A stretch of 64,000 bases of DNA from Deltaproteobacteria bacterium (lineage in GTDB: Bacteria > Desulfobacterota > DSM-4660 > Desulfatiglandales > Desulfatiglandaceae). Numbering within the stretch: the first letter of the stretch is position 1; every line of letters starts with the position of its first letter. The notes beneath the pieces were generated by a model. The model searched no databases and had not been told where the DNA came from. It was given only the letters and a program-made list of their open reading frames with translations. The position numbers and the translations under genes are program-made. Shown here piece after piece: positions 1,972 through 64,000 of the stretch. The stretch lies in the NCBI GenBank assembly GCA_021737785.1, contig JAIPDI010000013.1, positions 1 through 64,000 of the forward strand, read 5' to 3'.

Positions 1972-2041
1972 GAACCTTAAACTTTGGGCTTTCGGGTTTG
2001 AGCTTTCAGCTTTCAGCTTTCAGCTTTGACCTTTGAGCTTT
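1972..2041. repeat. Heptamer tandem array (10 units)
   Basis: Ten consecutive 7-base units keep perfect register: gaacctt, aaacttt, gggcttt, cgggttt, gagcttt, three of cagcttt, gaccttt, gagcttt. It lies in the 1793-2428 gene-free stretch, where I see no other structured feature. The cagcttt unit is the complement of the aaagctg units in the array at 36994-37210. Confidence 0.9.
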
Positions 2042-35426: not shown

Positions 35427-36641
35427 TTATGTGACGAAAATCCTGCCCAGGTTGGCTGTGGTCAGGGGATCTTCCATATACATTCCCAGACCGATATTTC
35501 TGATGGAATCCATACCGCGATCGTCGTACACCGGTATCTCTATTTCCGGTGCATCCTCAGGGGTGACCTCCCGGGCGATCTGGATGGATTTTTCCAGCTT
35601 CTCAAAGGAGAAATCGATCAGGTATCTTAGAAAGGCAAACGGATGGCGGATCATATGGACCCCATATTTCTTGCAGAGTGCCTGGCCCATCCGCGCATCG
35701 GCATAGGCCTTTTCCGTGGGGTCTTCTTCATGGGTGGTTCCGGCGCTCTGAAAGGTCGGGATATCCAGCATAAGGTTCAGGTGGGCCATAAGGATGTTCA
35801 AGAGATTATGGCTGACCAGTCCGTAATTCGGGTTGTATTCAATACTGGGATCCGCAATGGTCGGATAGCCTGCATGGACGCAGGTCGTGCCGGGGTTGAG
35901 CAACTGGGCCGCGCAGATGCCGAAGAGGACCTCGGCATGGGTCATGGAAAGCACCCCGTTATAACAATAAGGTGCACTGATGCCGGCCATCGGCATCGCC
36001 GAGATAAAGACCGGAAGGCCCGCTTTGACTACCTTTACAAAATGGTCGGAAAAGTTTTCATTCACCTCCAGCGGGGGCCGCGTGAGGCAGAAGACGACCA
36101 TGATATCCTTTCGTTCGGCGTAGATCTCCTTGGCCCGCTCCAGCGATTTATCCGAGGTCACCGCAAAATACAGCGGTTTGCTGCAATTCTCGGCCATGAT
36201 ATTCATCTGCATGACCTCGTCTTTCAGTTTAATGCCCCTCCCCATCCCGGCTACAGGCTCACGGGCATCGGCGATCTGTGCAATACGTTTGGCATGTTCA
36301 GGAGTGGGAAATATACCTCCGGTCCCTTTTTCGTCGTCATACACATAGGGGGCCGTTCCCCCGATGAAAAAGCTGTTGCGGGGGACAAAAAAGTCGGATA
36401 CCCCTGGGACCGTTTCAAGGCATCTCTCAACCAGCCCGGATGTCACATATATCCGATTATCATAGACCACGGCCTCACCCTCGGCCGTAAAGGGCTCAAA
36501 CACCTCTTGCATCTCCGGCTGCGTGCAGCCGACGCCCAGATTCTCCAATATCCACAACGCATCCTGATGCGACTTGAGCAGCATTTCGACGGCGTCGTTA
36601 CCTAAGACCGCCTTTGATGCTTCCACCTGTTTCGTATTCAT
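35427..36641 (-). CDS. MttB-family (trimethylamine methyltransferase-like) protein 2
   Basis: A 404-residue paralogue of the protein at 29996-31174, in the non-pyrrolysine MttB branch. Shared landmarks are SHQDALWILENLGV, FIGGTAPYVYDDEKG, NCSKPLYFAVTSD, SAMPMAGISAPYCYNG and NPGTTCVHAGYPT. It is the first gene of the leftward run MttB 2, amidotransferase 2, DAO. A regulatory region with two palindromes lies about 235-265 bases upstream. By eye the two MttB proteins are perhaps 40 percent identical, so they probably act on different substrates or steps. No corrinoid protein partner is nearby. Confidence 0.85.
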   Translation of the reverse strand: MNTKQVEASKAVLGNDAVEMLLKSHQDALWILENLGVGCTQPEMQEVFEPFTAEGEAVVYDNRIYVTSGLVERCLETVPGVSDFFVPRNSFFIGGTAPYVYDDEKGTGGIFPTPEHAKRIAQIADAREPVAGMGRGIKLKDEVMQMNIMAENCSKPLYFAVTSDKSLERAKEIYAERKDIMVVFCLTRPPLEVNENFSDHFVKVVKAGLPVFISAMPMAGISAPYCYNGVLSMTHAEVLFGICAAQLLNPGTTCVHAGYPTIADPSIEYNPNYGLVSHNLLNILMAHLNLMLDIPTFQSAGTTHEEDPTEKAYADARMGQALCKKYGVHMIRHPFAFLRYLIDFSFEKLEKSIQIAREVTPEDAPEIEIPVYDDRGMDSIRNIGLGMYMEDPLTTANLGRIFVT

Positions 36642-36906: not shown

Positions 36907-36993
36907 AATCATACAGCAAACAATATGGCGTGTCAAGGAAATCTTGGATTTTGTTTTAATGTATTTAAATTATTGGGGATAAGTAGTAAGGTG

Positions 36994-37210
36994 GAAGCTG
37001 AAAGCTCAAAGCTCAAAGCTCAAAGGGGAAAGGGGAAAGGGGAGAGGGGAAAGGGGAGAGGGGAAAGGGGAAAGGGGAAAGGGGAAAGGGGAGAGGGGTT
37101 ATCAGTTATCGGTAAATGGAAGCTGAAAGCTTGAAAGCTGAAAGCTCAAAGGTGAAAGGGGAAAGGGGAAAGGGGAAAGGGGAAAGGGGAGAGGGGTTAT
37201 CAGTTATCGG
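36994..37210. repeat. Composite heptamer array, 31 units in perfect register
   Basis: The 217 bases divide exactly into 31 seven-base words: gaagctg, aaagctc x3, then runs of aaagggg and agagggg, then ttatcag, ttatcgg, taaatgg, aagctga, aagcttg, aaagctg, aaagctc, aaaggtg, five aaagggg, agagggg, ttatcag, ttatcgg. Register holds even where the word changes completely. The ttatcggtaaatggaagctg segment recurs inverted at 63972-64000. Confidence 0.95.
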
Positions 37211-37221
37211 GAAGAGAGGAC

Positions 37222-37270
37222 ACCCCGGTGAAACCCCTTCGGGAACTCCTTCGGAGTTGTTTCACGGGGC
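37222..37270. repeat. Hairpin element copy
   Basis: CCCCGGTGAAAC pairs with GTTTCACGGGG, enclosing a second hairpin cttcgggaactccttcggag. It belongs to the same family as 25229-25352 and 61229-61275. Confidence 0.6.
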
Positions 37271-37300
37271 AGGGAGGACGGGAAACAGCGGGGAAGCCCT

Positions 37301-37335
37301 ATGCTCCATGCCCCATGCTCCCTGCTCCATGCTAC
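37301..37335. repeat. Heptamer array (5 units) touching the marR stop
   Basis: atgctcc, atgcccc, atgctcc, ctgctcc and atgctac follow in register, and the last unit contains the marR stop codon (complement of cta at 37332-37334). Confidence 0.8.
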
Positions 37336-37823
37336 GTGACGTCCAGATCCTGCACATCCAGCATGTCGGTGAGCCGTTTCAGGGTCAGTGCAATGTCGTC
37401 GATATCGCTGGGAGAAAGCTTGTTAAGTCCGTCAATAATCTTGTGCTGTATGGGGGGCGGGGCATTTTCAGCGAGTATTTTTCCGCTTCGGGTCAACTCC
37501 ACCGTAATCACCCGGCGGTCATGTGAGATCCGTGATCGTTCAACAAGCCCCTTTTTCTCCAGCCGATCGATAATACCCGTAACCGTGCTGGAATTGACCA
37601 TCACATGTCTCGCAATCTGGGACGGGGAAAGGGGGCCGTTTTCGTGAAGGGCGATCAGACAGTTGATCTGAGCCGCGCTCACATTGTATATCTTGTTCAG
37701 TTCCTTTGTATAATGCTCCCCTGCCTGCATCAATCTGCGGATCGCATAGATGATCTCCTTGGTTCGTATGGTATGGATATCTTCAGGATGATCAGGGGGA
37801 ACACTATTATTTTTTTGAGACAT
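37332..37823 (-). CDS. MarR-family transcriptional regulator
   Basis: A 163-residue winged-helix regulator. The recognition part is LSPSQIARHVMVNSSTVTGII followed by DRLEKKGLVERSRI and the wing SHDRRVITVELT, all typical of MarR. Helices on both sides form the dimer. It lies between the leftward MttB operon and the rightward betaine transporter, and could control either. Family members usually repress and are released by small phenolic or other ligands. A palindrome at 36875-36884 is a possible target. Confidence 0.92.
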   Translation of the reverse strand: MSQKNNSVPPDHPEDIHTIRTKEIIYAIRRLMQAGEHYTKELNKIYNVSAAQINCLIALHENGPLSPSQIARHVMVNSSTVTGIIDRLEKKGLVERSRISHDRRVITVELTRSGKILAENAPPPIQHKIIDGLNKLSPSDIDDIALTLKRLTDMLDVQDLDVT

Positions 37824-37897
37824 GATGGTTCACCTGTGAAAACAAGATTTTTCTGTCTGTTATCATAAAGGAGATTCCCGGGCAATAGAATAATAGC

Positions 37898-38090
37898 ACC
37901 TTATGCCCTGGTCTTCCGTCATGAAAAACAAAAAAAATATGGCCATCCTTCCACTGCACGCTTAGCCTTCCGTCATTCCGGCACGATTCCAGCCGGAATC
38001 CAGAAATACGGGGGGCTGGATTCCGGCTAAGGGCATGCCGGAATGACGGGACAGCACACAGCCTTTTGGTTGCGGTTATCCGCTTTAGAA
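37898..38090. repeat. Palindromic REP-like element, copy 1 (193 bp)
   Basis: A near-identical copy, same orientation, is at 61341-61533. Outer arms CCGTCATTCCGGCA (37970-37983) and TGCCGGAATGACGG (38036-38049) are perfectly complementary over 14 bases; inner arms GCCGGAATCCAG and CTGGATTCCGGC pair over 12. It fills most of the 37824-38128 gap. There is no open frame for a transposase, so it is a non-autonomous element. Confidence 0.9.
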
Positions 38091-51385: not shown

Positions 51386-51658
51386 TAACGCGGATACCCG
51401 CAACCAAAGTCGTTATCGAGTGACTGCCTATTATCAAGGGAGTTCGTTGTTTCGCCAGACGTCTGGAATGGTGGAATACTGGAATAATGGAAGGTTGGGA
51501 AAGGAACCTGGATCACCCGGAAAGGTTTTTTTCCTTAAACCCATTATTCCATCATTCCATACTTCCATTATTCCAAATTAAAGACGTCACCCTCTCACAA
51601 TCATCTTCTTGTTTTTTGTGACAGAAAATCTGGCGATAAGGCACTAAAATGCCTTATC
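51386..51658. repeat. Long dispersed element, copy A
   Basis: About 264 bases (51386-51649) recur at 55441-55702 at about 95 percent identity with a 2-base indel. Inside, 8-base words ggaatggt, ggaatact, ggaataat oppose ccattatt, ccatcatt, ccatactt, ccattatt, so the centre folds back. At the right end GATAAGGCA-ctaaaa-TGCCTTATC is a perfect hairpin, complete only in this copy. The element lies between the promoter and the mutase gene. Confidence 0.9.
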
Positions 51659-55440: not shown

Positions 55441-55702
55441 TAACGCGGATACCCGCAACCAAAGTCGTTATCGAGTGGCTGCCTAATATCAAGGGAGTTC
55501 GATGTTGCCAGACATCTGGAATGGTGGAATACTGGAATAATGGAAGGTTGGGAAAGGAACCTGGATCACCCAGGAAAGGTTTTTTTCTTAAACCCATTAT
55601 TCCATCATTCCATACTTCCATTATTCCAAATTAAAGACGTCACCCTCTCACAATCATCTTCTTGTTTTTTGTGGCAGAAAATCTGGCGATAAGGCACTAA
55701 AA
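55441..55702. repeat. Long dispersed element, copy B
   Basis: Second copy of 51386-51649, same orientation. It ends at gcactaaaa, and GGAGAGG, the ribosome-binding site of the ThDP enzyme, follows at once, so the right arm of the terminal hairpin is missing here. The 55398-55712 gap is almost entirely this element. Confidence 0.9.
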
Positions 55703-55712
55703 GGAGAGGTTC

Positions 55713-57515
55713 ATGGGCGATGTTGCGCACCTGATTGCACGATTTCTGAAAGAACGGTCGGTGGACCGCGTGTTCAGCCTTTGCGGGGGACATATTCTCC
55801 CCATATGGGACCCGGTTCATTGCATGGGGATCCCTATTGTGGATGTGCGCGACGAGCGGGCCGCGGTTCATATGGCCCATGCCCACCGGGAATTGACAGG
55901 GCGTCTCGGCGTGGCCCTGGTCACCGCGGGCCCGGGCCTGACCAACGCGGTCACGGGCATTGCCAATGCCCATGTATCCCGCGTCCCCATTCTGGTGATC
56001 TCCGGGGTCCCGCCCAGGCCGCAGGAAAACATGGGCGCGCTTCAGGCCGTGCCCCAGGCGGAGATGGTCCGCCCCATCACCCGTTACGCGCGCACGGTGT
56101 CGAGGGCCGAACATGTATTGAGAGAACTGGACGAGGCCGTCTCTTGTGCCGAAGGGCATTGCAATGAACCCGGTCCTGCCTTTATCGACTTTCCCACCGA
56201 TCTGCTTCGGGAGGAGATCCCCGAGGCCTTTGTCGATCCTTCCAGATTCCGGGCCAGGGAACCGGTCCGCATCATTCCGTCGGCCGGGACCCTTGGCGCG
56301 GCGGTTAAGATCCTCTGGCAGGCCCAGCGGCCCCTGGTGATCTCCGGGCGGGGGGCGCGAGGCGCGGAACCGGAACTCCTGAAAATCCTGGACGGCCTGG
56401 GATGCGTCTATATGGACACGGCCGAAAGCCGCGGTCTGGTACCGGAAGATCATCCCGCCTACATGCCTGCCATGCGGGCGCGCGCCATGCAGGAGGCGGA
56501 CGCGGTGCTCACCGTGGGTCGCACCCTCGACTTCCAGTTGGGATACGGATCCGAGGCCGTTTTTCCCCATGCCAGTTTTGTCCGCATCGGTATCAGTGCG
56601 TCAGAGCTTCGAGGGAACCGGCGTGCCCATGTGGAATTGTTCGGTTCGGCCCAAGAAACCCTGGAGGCCCTGATGAAGGCCGCAAAGGGAGCGCGGCCGG
56701 CGACGGATCGGTCCTGGATCGAGGAGATGCAGAGCGCAGACCGGGGGCGTCGTCAAGGGCTTGTGCAGAAACTGGCAGACGCCCCTCCGGGAAATGACGG
56801 CGCCATGCACCCCTACCGGCTGCTGGGGCACGTGCGGGACTCCCTGAAGGAGGACGCCATTGTGGTGGCCGACGGCGGGGACTTTCTCTCCTTTGCCCGC
56901 GTTGCCCTATCAGGGGCCGCCTACCTGGATTGCGGGGCCTTCGGGTGCCTGGGCGTGGGCGTGCCCTTCGGCATTGCCTCGGCCCTGGCATTTCCAAATC
57001 GTCAGGTGGTGGTGGTGTCCGGGGACGGGTCATTCGGCTTCAATGCCATCGAGCTGGATACCTGCCGGCGCCACAAGGCGCGGGTCGTCTTTATCGTGGC
57101 CAACAACGGCGGATGGAACATCGAGCGAAACGATCAGAAAGAGGCCTATGGGGGGAGGATCGTGGGCACGGAACTGGAGGGGTGCGATTATGCCATGCTG
57201 GCGCGATCCATGGGCGTTTACGGGGAACGGATCGAGCGGCCCGAAGACCTGCCGGATGCGCTGAAGCGGTCATTTGATGAGGCCCCGGCGCTTTTGGACG
57301 TCATGGTCACCCGGGATGCGGTTTCGCCCGACGCCCTGGCCGGGCTCCCTGGCATTCCGGATCGACAGGCCCTCTCGACCTGGGATGAATGGGAAGGGAG
57401 GCGCAAGGCGCAAGGCGTGAGGCGCAAGGCGCAAGGCGTGAGGTATGAGGAAGAGAGGTCCTCGAACCGGAATCTGATCACTGCTACGGAGAACGGGCGA
57501 TTGCCGAATGAATAA
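55713..57515 (+). CDS. ThDP-dependent enzyme (acetolactate synthase/2-hydroxyacyl-CoA lyase family)
   Basis: A 600-residue protein of the three-domain ThDP family. The catalytic Glu48 lies in VRDERAAVHMAHA; AGPGLTNAVTGIANAH and the FAD or ADP-type middle domain follow; the ThDP motif runs from G437-D-G to N465 (GDGSFGFN, then NNGGW). Relatives are acetolactate synthase, oxalyl-CoA decarboxylase and 2-hydroxyacyl-CoA lyase; beside a CoA ligase and mutase, a hydroxyacyl-CoA lyase role is attractive. From residue 563 the C-terminus is translated heptamer repeat (RRKAQGVRRKAQGV), about 38 residues beyond the usual end. GGAGAGG precedes the ATG. The stop overlaps the next gene by 8 bases. Confidence 0.88.
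   Translation: MGDVAHLIARFLKERSVDRVFSLCGGHILPIWDPVHCMGIPIVDVRDERAAVHMAHAHRELTGRLGVALVTAGPGLTNAVTGIANAHVSRVPILVISGVPPRPQENMGALQAVPQAEMVRPITRYARTVSRAEHVLRELDEAVSCAEGHCNEPGPAFIDFPTDLLREEIPEAFVDPSRFRAREPVRIIPSAGTLGAAVKILWQAQRPLVISGRGARGAEPELLKILDGLGCVYMDTAESRGLVPEDHPAYMPAMRARAMQEADAVLTVGRTLDFQLGYGSEAVFPHASFVRIGISASELRGNRRAHVELFGSAQETLEALMKAAKGARPATDRSWIEEMQSADRGRRQGLVQKLADAPPGNDGAMHPYRLLGHVRDSLKEDAIVVADGGDFLSFARVALSGAAYLDCGAFGCLGVGVPFGIASALAFPNRQVVVVSGDGSFGFNAIELDTCRRHKARVVFIVANNGGWNIERNDQKEAYGGRIVGTELEGCDYAMLARSMGVYGERIERPEDLPDALKRSFDEAPALLDVMVTRDAVSPDALAGLPGIPDRQALSTWDEWEGRRKAQGVRRKAQGVRYEEERSSNRNLITATENGRLPNE
57400..57455. repeat. Heptamer array inside a coding region (8 units)
   Basis: ggcgcaa, ggcgcaa, ggcgtga, ggcgcaa, ggcgcaa, ggcgtga, ggtatga and ggaagag follow in register within the 3' end of the ThDP enzyme gene. 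Translated, three units give a 7-residue repeat. Confidence 0.92.
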
Positions 57516-63834: not shown

Positions 63835-63847
63835 ATGGCATGGCGCA

Positions 63848-63896
63848 GGGAGCAGGGAGCGGGGAGTGGGGAGCAGGGAGCAGGGAGCAGGGAGTA
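63848..63896. repeat. Heptamer array (7 units)
   Basis: gggagca, gggagcg, gggagtg, three gggagca and gggagta follow in register upstream of the DUF4416 gene. Confidence 0.92.
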
Positions 63897-63957
63897 TGGT
63901 CCCCTCCGTTTCCCGTCCTCCGTTCCTGATAACCGCGCAACTTCTTCTTCCTTATAG

Positions 63958-64000
63958 TTTTCAGCTCTCAGCTTCCATTTACCGATAACCGATAACCGAT
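63958..64000. repeat. Heptamer array running off the window
   Basis: ttttcag, ctctcag, cttccat, ttaccga, taaccga, taaccga, then t at the window end. It is the inverted counterpart of ttatcgg-taaatgg-aagctga in the 36994-37210 array. Confidence 0.85.

Follow-up and report, generated by a model that had tools for sequence, protein, structure and literature searches.

The array at 36994-37210 of the window (the whole 64-kb stretch of DNA analysed here) consists of a single composite, (AAAGCTS)n-(AAAGGGG)n-(TTATCRG)n, present twice in tandem. About a dozen further intergenic sites carry this composite with its words in unchanged order, usually with (TGCTCCM)n after it. With tandem 7-base units beyond chance that lie mostly between genes, the array belongs to the heptameric simple sequence repeats (LSSR). 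A period of seven, composites with shared junctions, a polarity relative to genes and an exchange of words between congeners characterise these arrays. They are read here, with a little more confidence than doubt, as a mosaic of heptameric simple sequence repeats that arises through 7-nt slippage and through the copying of array segments from one site to another; slippage and recombination are the physical steps that we infer.

The array at 37 kb and its surroundings

The window is part of a contig of 101.6 kb, from a draft genome of 5.33 Mb whose closest named relatives are Desulfobacterales and other deltaproteobacterial metagenome genomes. The array occupies a 690-bp spacer between two minus-strand genes, one for a MarR-family regulator (37332-37823; PF01047) and one for an MttB-family methyltransferase (35427-36641; PF06253), beyond which a betaine-transporter-like gene is found. 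Some 55 bp separate its start from a good promoter-like sequence (36936-36908), the predicted sigma-70-like promoter of the methyltransferase gene (36908-36936, minus strand), which by eye is also present in relatives.

The plus-strand array comprises exactly 31 x 7 bases, the count given by the first-pass annotation. Its opening words are GAAGCTG, three AAAGCTC, 11 AAAGGGG/AGAGGGG units, TTATCAG, TTATCGG and TAAATGG, followed by AAGCTGA, AAGCTTG, AAAGCTG, AAAGCTC, AAAGGTG, five AAAGGGG, AGAGGGG, TTATCAG and TTATCGG. Identity at lag 7 is 0.81, compared with a peak of 0.547 at any lag from 4 to 20 in Markov resamples (n = 2000). The annotation had described these words as several unrelated kinds, which is true of TTATCRG, a different word, but not of AAAGCTC, AAAGGTG and AAAGGGG, a mutational series in which AAAG stays constant. 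Its further claim that one register is held through the change of word does not survive: the AAAG core occurs 11 times at phase 0, moves to phase 6 at 37126 and is at phase 0 again from 37134, and strict register was therefore rejected. Six- and eight-base steps at about 37119 and 37134 cancel, the -1 step being offset by the 8-base unit AAAGCTTG, so that 31 words still fit the frame.

The word families are designated A (AAAGCTS), B (AAAGGGG), C (TTATCRG), D (TGCTCCM), E (AGGCGYR), F (AACCAGT and variants) and G (ATCCAGY). The first composite copy (36992-37112, plus strand) consists of TGGAAGCTG, three AAAGCTC (A), 11 AAAGGGG/AGAGGGG (B) and TTATCAG TTATCGG (C), and the second (37117-37210, plus strand) of TGGAAGCTG, the 8-base unit, A, AAAGGTG, six B units and C. 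The two copies thus differ by whole 7-base B units and one 8-base unit. A C-to-A junction, TTATCGGTAAATGGAAGCTGA (37106-37126, plus strand), has an exact second copy at 63968 on the minus strand. Beyond the array lie a GC-rich palindrome, GTGAAACCCCTTCGGGAACTCCTTCGGAGTTGTTTCAC (37219-37266), which may be a terminator; the linker GGAGGACGGGAAAC (37273-37286, plus strand), common to the composite at 63.9 kb; and a TRF-detected D array, (TGCTCCM)n (37296-37333, plus strand), that ends at the MarR stop codon. The other genomic copy of the palindrome (L079:7348-7402) is 82% identical and adjoins another heptamer array.

Further arrays listed by the annotation at 1972-2041, 37301-37335, 57400-57455, 63848-63896 and 63958-64000 are all recovered by TRF, its positions being approximate. 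In addition to the D array, they comprise a lone A array of AAAGCTC/AAAGCTG (1982-2041, minus strand); an E array built of AGGCGCA/AGGCGTG and exactly periodic at 21 bases (57398-57443, plus strand), within the 3' end of an open reading frame (55713-57515) in which three words equal seven codons; and the second full composite of the window (63845-64000, minus strand; TRF and layout), of the form A-B-C-A'-D, which runs on to about 64075 of the contig. Two other repeat types are present in the window. An octamer array pair, CTGGAATA and CCATTATT, occurs twice (51463-51579 and 55516-55628), about 4 kb apart, suggesting a duplicated spacer with 8-base repeats. A dispersed, MITE-like element (37894-38090), about 190 bp long and with an inverted repeat in its interior, has about 20 near-full copies, all intergenic and 82-94% identical, in a 2.25-Mb sample of the genome, and relatives in G103.

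Period and composite order across the genome

The scan for 7-base periodicity that the annotation had proposed was run on this 2.25-Mb sample of the 5.33-Mb genome, which was partly picked for TTATCRG arrays and is therefore biased toward them. Exact runs (at least 12 matches) number 80 at lag 7, 24 at lag 8 and three each at lags 6 and 9, with none at lags 4, 5 and 10 of the same 2.25 Mb. The annotation had allowed that the periodicity might be no higher than in shuffled intergenic DNA; the Markov control yields zero exact runs at lags 4-10. Period 7 is carried by other words of the sample as well (ATCCAGY, AGGCGYR, AACCAGT, TCAAATC and GAATTAA), supporting a genome-wide step size of seven, less often eight, bases that is independent of the word. 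The runs are mostly intergenic, with 8 of 100 period-7 runs falling within genes predicted by a simple codon-model caller built for the analysis. Array starts lie within 10 bp of a stop codon in 29% of cases, versus 17% under random placement; for start codons there is no such excess over random placement.

When array-bearing spacers are read in one orientation, a recurring composite emerges, A-B-C-D or (AAAGCTS)n-(AAAGGGG)n-(TTATCRG)n-(TGCTCCM)n. Counted per spacer on the same strand, D lies to the right of A in 12 and to the left in none, and the corresponding order counts are 11 to 0 for C-D, 8 to 0 for E-G and 7 to 0 for A-G. D and G words face each other in 9 of 9 cases. The left-hand words are A, E and reversed D, and the right-hand words are D, F and G. 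Exact non-repeat junctions are common to the composites at 37.1 and 63.9 kb (the 21-mer TTATCGGTAAATGGAAGCTGA and the 14-mer GGAGGACGGGAAAC), and a 19-mer, AATGGGAGCTCCGTGCTCC, is common to contigs C73 and C75; reversed linker controls gave zero matches. Judged from their sequences, the recurring composites appear to be copies of one another rather than parallel inventions. The C-D composite pattern was found in one of 395 genomes of the phylum, namely the source genome, so the full composite is lineage-specific, with AAAGCTS extending to other families of the order.

These data bear on the explanation in which each site slips independently, its array growing from a local chance seed, with seven favoured by the footprint of DNA polymerase. 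That one step size prevails across many words, that the runs are homogeneous and that the same repeat class is present in other bacteria are all consistent with such a process. Slippage at one site cannot, however, explain how a small set of words comes to recur at distant sites with order and junctions unchanged, and words are also exchanged at orthologous sites, as described below. Independent slippage is considered unlikely.

Orthologous spacers in related genomes

The MarR-MttB gene pair is kept in many relatives, where the spacer is mostly 230-420 bp long and does not contain this array, versus 690 bp here; in the congener G395, about 90 bp separate the match to the promoter region from that to MarR, versus 392 bp here. 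In CSMAG_456, the same spacer (L030:900-1000) carries other heptamers, with GAACRTC to the left and CACTCC/CATTCTG to the right. Three orthologous spacers could be compared with G349, a congener species rather than an isolate of the same one, in which the flanking genes are roughly 66-85% identical at the DNA level. The first reads A-B-C-(GCGCATA)n-F in G349 versus reversed D-A-E-F-G in the source genome; the second has an A array in both genomes, with (GCGCATA)n additional in G349; and the third has F/G arrays that are unlike in words and number. The arrays of the two genomes therefore differ in words as well as in unit number: arrays stay at a site while their words get replaced. Slippage at the site alone is insufficient for such replacement, which copying from other sites can produce. 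Together with the composites shared between distant sites, these differences bear out the annotation's view that the arrays reflect more than slippage of one repeat.

Other words occur elsewhere among the relatives, including GAAACTG in Desulfonema magnum, AAAGCTS in G252 and G208 (another family of the order) and GAGCATG in G349. The sequence GRCTATTGRCTATT, meant as a reversed control, matches 37 times in G396 and 52 times in G405, in which GRCTATT is a further lineage-specific heptamer word.

The absence of this array from the same spacer in relatives also fits a non-autonomous, MITE-like element with a body made of heptamers, which would insert between genes and then slip. The fixed order and shared linkers are compatible with this proposal, as is a 359-bp stretch of G349 (L217:8387-8746) with 7- and 8-base repeats (TTGATGA, GTTCAGG and GAACCTTT) and, by eye, imperfect inverted ends, at the position of which the source genome, G000, has a 15-bp spacer (L094:12600-12615). 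For the A-B-C-D composite itself, however, inspection by eye revealed no terminal inverted repeats, constant ends or target duplications; left and right words are interchangeable modules, and partial composites are numerous. A mobile element of this type is rather improbable. A BLAST search with the array found no matches among plasmid and phage records, a result weakened by the low-complexity filter. Scans of IMG/VR for three-unit words, set against reversed controls, gave at least 120 versus 15 matches for TTATCRG and 80 versus 7 for TGCTCCM, with AAAGCTS only weakly above its control (57 versus 36); the composite order was not found in these scans.

In the favoured mosaic of slippage and segment copying, unit number would shift by seven (less often eight or six) bases via slippage or misaligned recombination, and multi-word segments would be copied between intergenic sites by recombination or template switching among similar arrays. 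Such copying would place ordered A-B-C-D composites and their junctions at many sites and would let a site swap its words. The array in the window would sit in a dispensable stretch, from the MarR stop codon to the promoter of the next gene. Word changes are accounted for by ordinary recombination that copies array segments between sites, and a dedicated seven-base mechanism is not needed. Of the mechanism for adding or copying seven bases that the annotation had proposed, a word-independent step and copying between sites are thus retained, and a dedicated copying enzyme is not. Several points count against this mosaic: slippage and recombination give no reason for seven over five, six or nine; no donor site was found for a given swapped array; and order and polarity hold although the right-hand words vary (D, F and G), whereas random exchange need not preserve either.

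Polarity, published heptamers and alternative mechanisms

In five word families, the purine- or G-rich strand of an array has the nearer gene on its 5' side, regardless of the direction in which that gene is transcribed. Over arrays of any word, 52 of 71 have the nearer gene on the 5' side of their G-rich strand, and this applies to 3' as well as 5' gene ends. With one count per gene edge and a distance of at most 50 bp, the polarity held at 45 of 54 edges (p = 4e-7, a value that assumes independent edges, which copying makes doubtful). By family, it holds in 19/19 cases for D, 27/31 for G, 25/31 for A, 14/18 for F and 20/31 for E; in the A-D composites, it follows from the fixed order. Array-free spacers are without this skew: the fraction of edges with an outward G excess is 0.52 for 3' and 0.35 for 5' edges. 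Beyond the genus, 15 of 26 cases in the sampled relatives follow the rule, which is not significant.

The same nearer-gene-5' rule, whatever the gene direction, was published for the heptamer GGGNATC of Xanthomonas and the related word of Nostoc (Rehm et al. 2015; PMC4692102). Those arrays resemble the present ones in their 7-base unit, intergenic position, variable unit number and polarity, and they differ in length between sister species at the same gene pairs. Unlike those arrays, the words here are neither GGGNATC nor GGGGAYT, several word families are combined in a set order within composites, and one and the same site can hold different words in sister species. TAACTGA direct repeats were described in Beggiatoaceae, Cyanobacteria and Bacteroidetes (MacGregor 2015; PMC4679880, which names no Desulfobacterota), and in Microcystis they are mixed with other heptamers, close strains differing by 7-step indels (PMC4679880). 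The C word TTATCAG is the same word on the opposite strand, but here it is one module of a composite and is not located mainly upstream of start codons. As summarised in PMC4679880, Mrazek et al. (2007) found heptanucleotides to be the commonest of 5-11 nt repeats in most bacterial genomes surveyed, and both PMC4679880 and PMC4692102 report that they tied slippage to the stretch of DNA held by the polymerase; the survey of long simple sequence repeats was by unit length, and these summaries give neither order nor polarity. Constant-size, variable-sequence bacterial tandem repeats of 20-21 and 52 nt (Subirana and Messeguer 2021; PMC8161180) are alike in combining one unit size with many sequences; that search began at 10 nt, placing heptamers outside its scope.

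Earlier publications thus already cover heptameric repeats, 7-base indels between strains, the mixed heptamers of Microcystis and the polarity. New, as far as the literature was searched, are heptamers in Desulfobacterales, ordered multi-word composites, a polarity that several unrelated words of one genome share, and the replacement of words in orthologous spacers. Because one order and one polarity govern several words that are not related, and two congeners differ in the words at the same gene junctions, sequenced isolates would allow a change in length to be told apart from an exchange of words; the old question of why the unit is seven thereby becomes testable.

Polarity toward gene edges and confinement to intergenic DNA could also reflect selection of the arrays as signals, whether as terminator or spacer structures, G-quadruplexes or sites for a protein that steps by seven bases. 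Published work shows that G-rich heptamers form G4 (PMC4692102), and translational regulation by TAACTGA has been proposed in print (PMC4679880). Selection of this kind is nevertheless very improbable: as RNA, the window array does not fold clearly better than shuffles do (z = +1.2 and -1.7), and orthologous spacers lack the array or carry other words. A further proposal, a long shot of similar standing, is that a word-independent process with a step of seven (or eight) would lay purine-rich repeats 5' to 3' outward from both borders of a gap, as though intergenic breaks had their 3' ends extended before being rejoined, with words then spreading genome-wide.

Least probable of all, and barely credible, is an enzyme devoted to writing 7-base units, be it a reverse transcriptase, a RAYT or a specialised polymerase, since the word-independent step size and polarity that speak for it are opposed by a sole reverse transcriptase that is broken and of group II type, by reverse transcriptase presence that does not follow the arrays and by a nearly ubiquitous Y1_Tnp. 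The annotation had suggested testing for a reverse transcriptase, polymerase or RAYT that tracks with the arrays; for reverse transcriptase and RAYT, such an association received no support. RVT_1 has a single match in the genome, to a group II intron maturase that is split between frames, and RVT_1 exceeds the cut-off in 3 of 10 genomes with AAAGCTS arrays versus 41 of 85 genomes of the order overall; repeats written by reverse transcriptase were rejected, there being no intact gene that tracks with arrays in this genome and those 85. Y1_Tnp (RAYT/IS200) is found in 79 of the 85 with or without arrays, which makes it uninformative about a RAYT link, and a REP/RAYT system was rejected on this ground and because the array words are not palindromes. 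The group II intron reverse transcriptase/maturase lies in two frames at L208 (C19:14232-17696), and in a nearby open reading frame TATCCAG-type heptamer-like repeats are translated.
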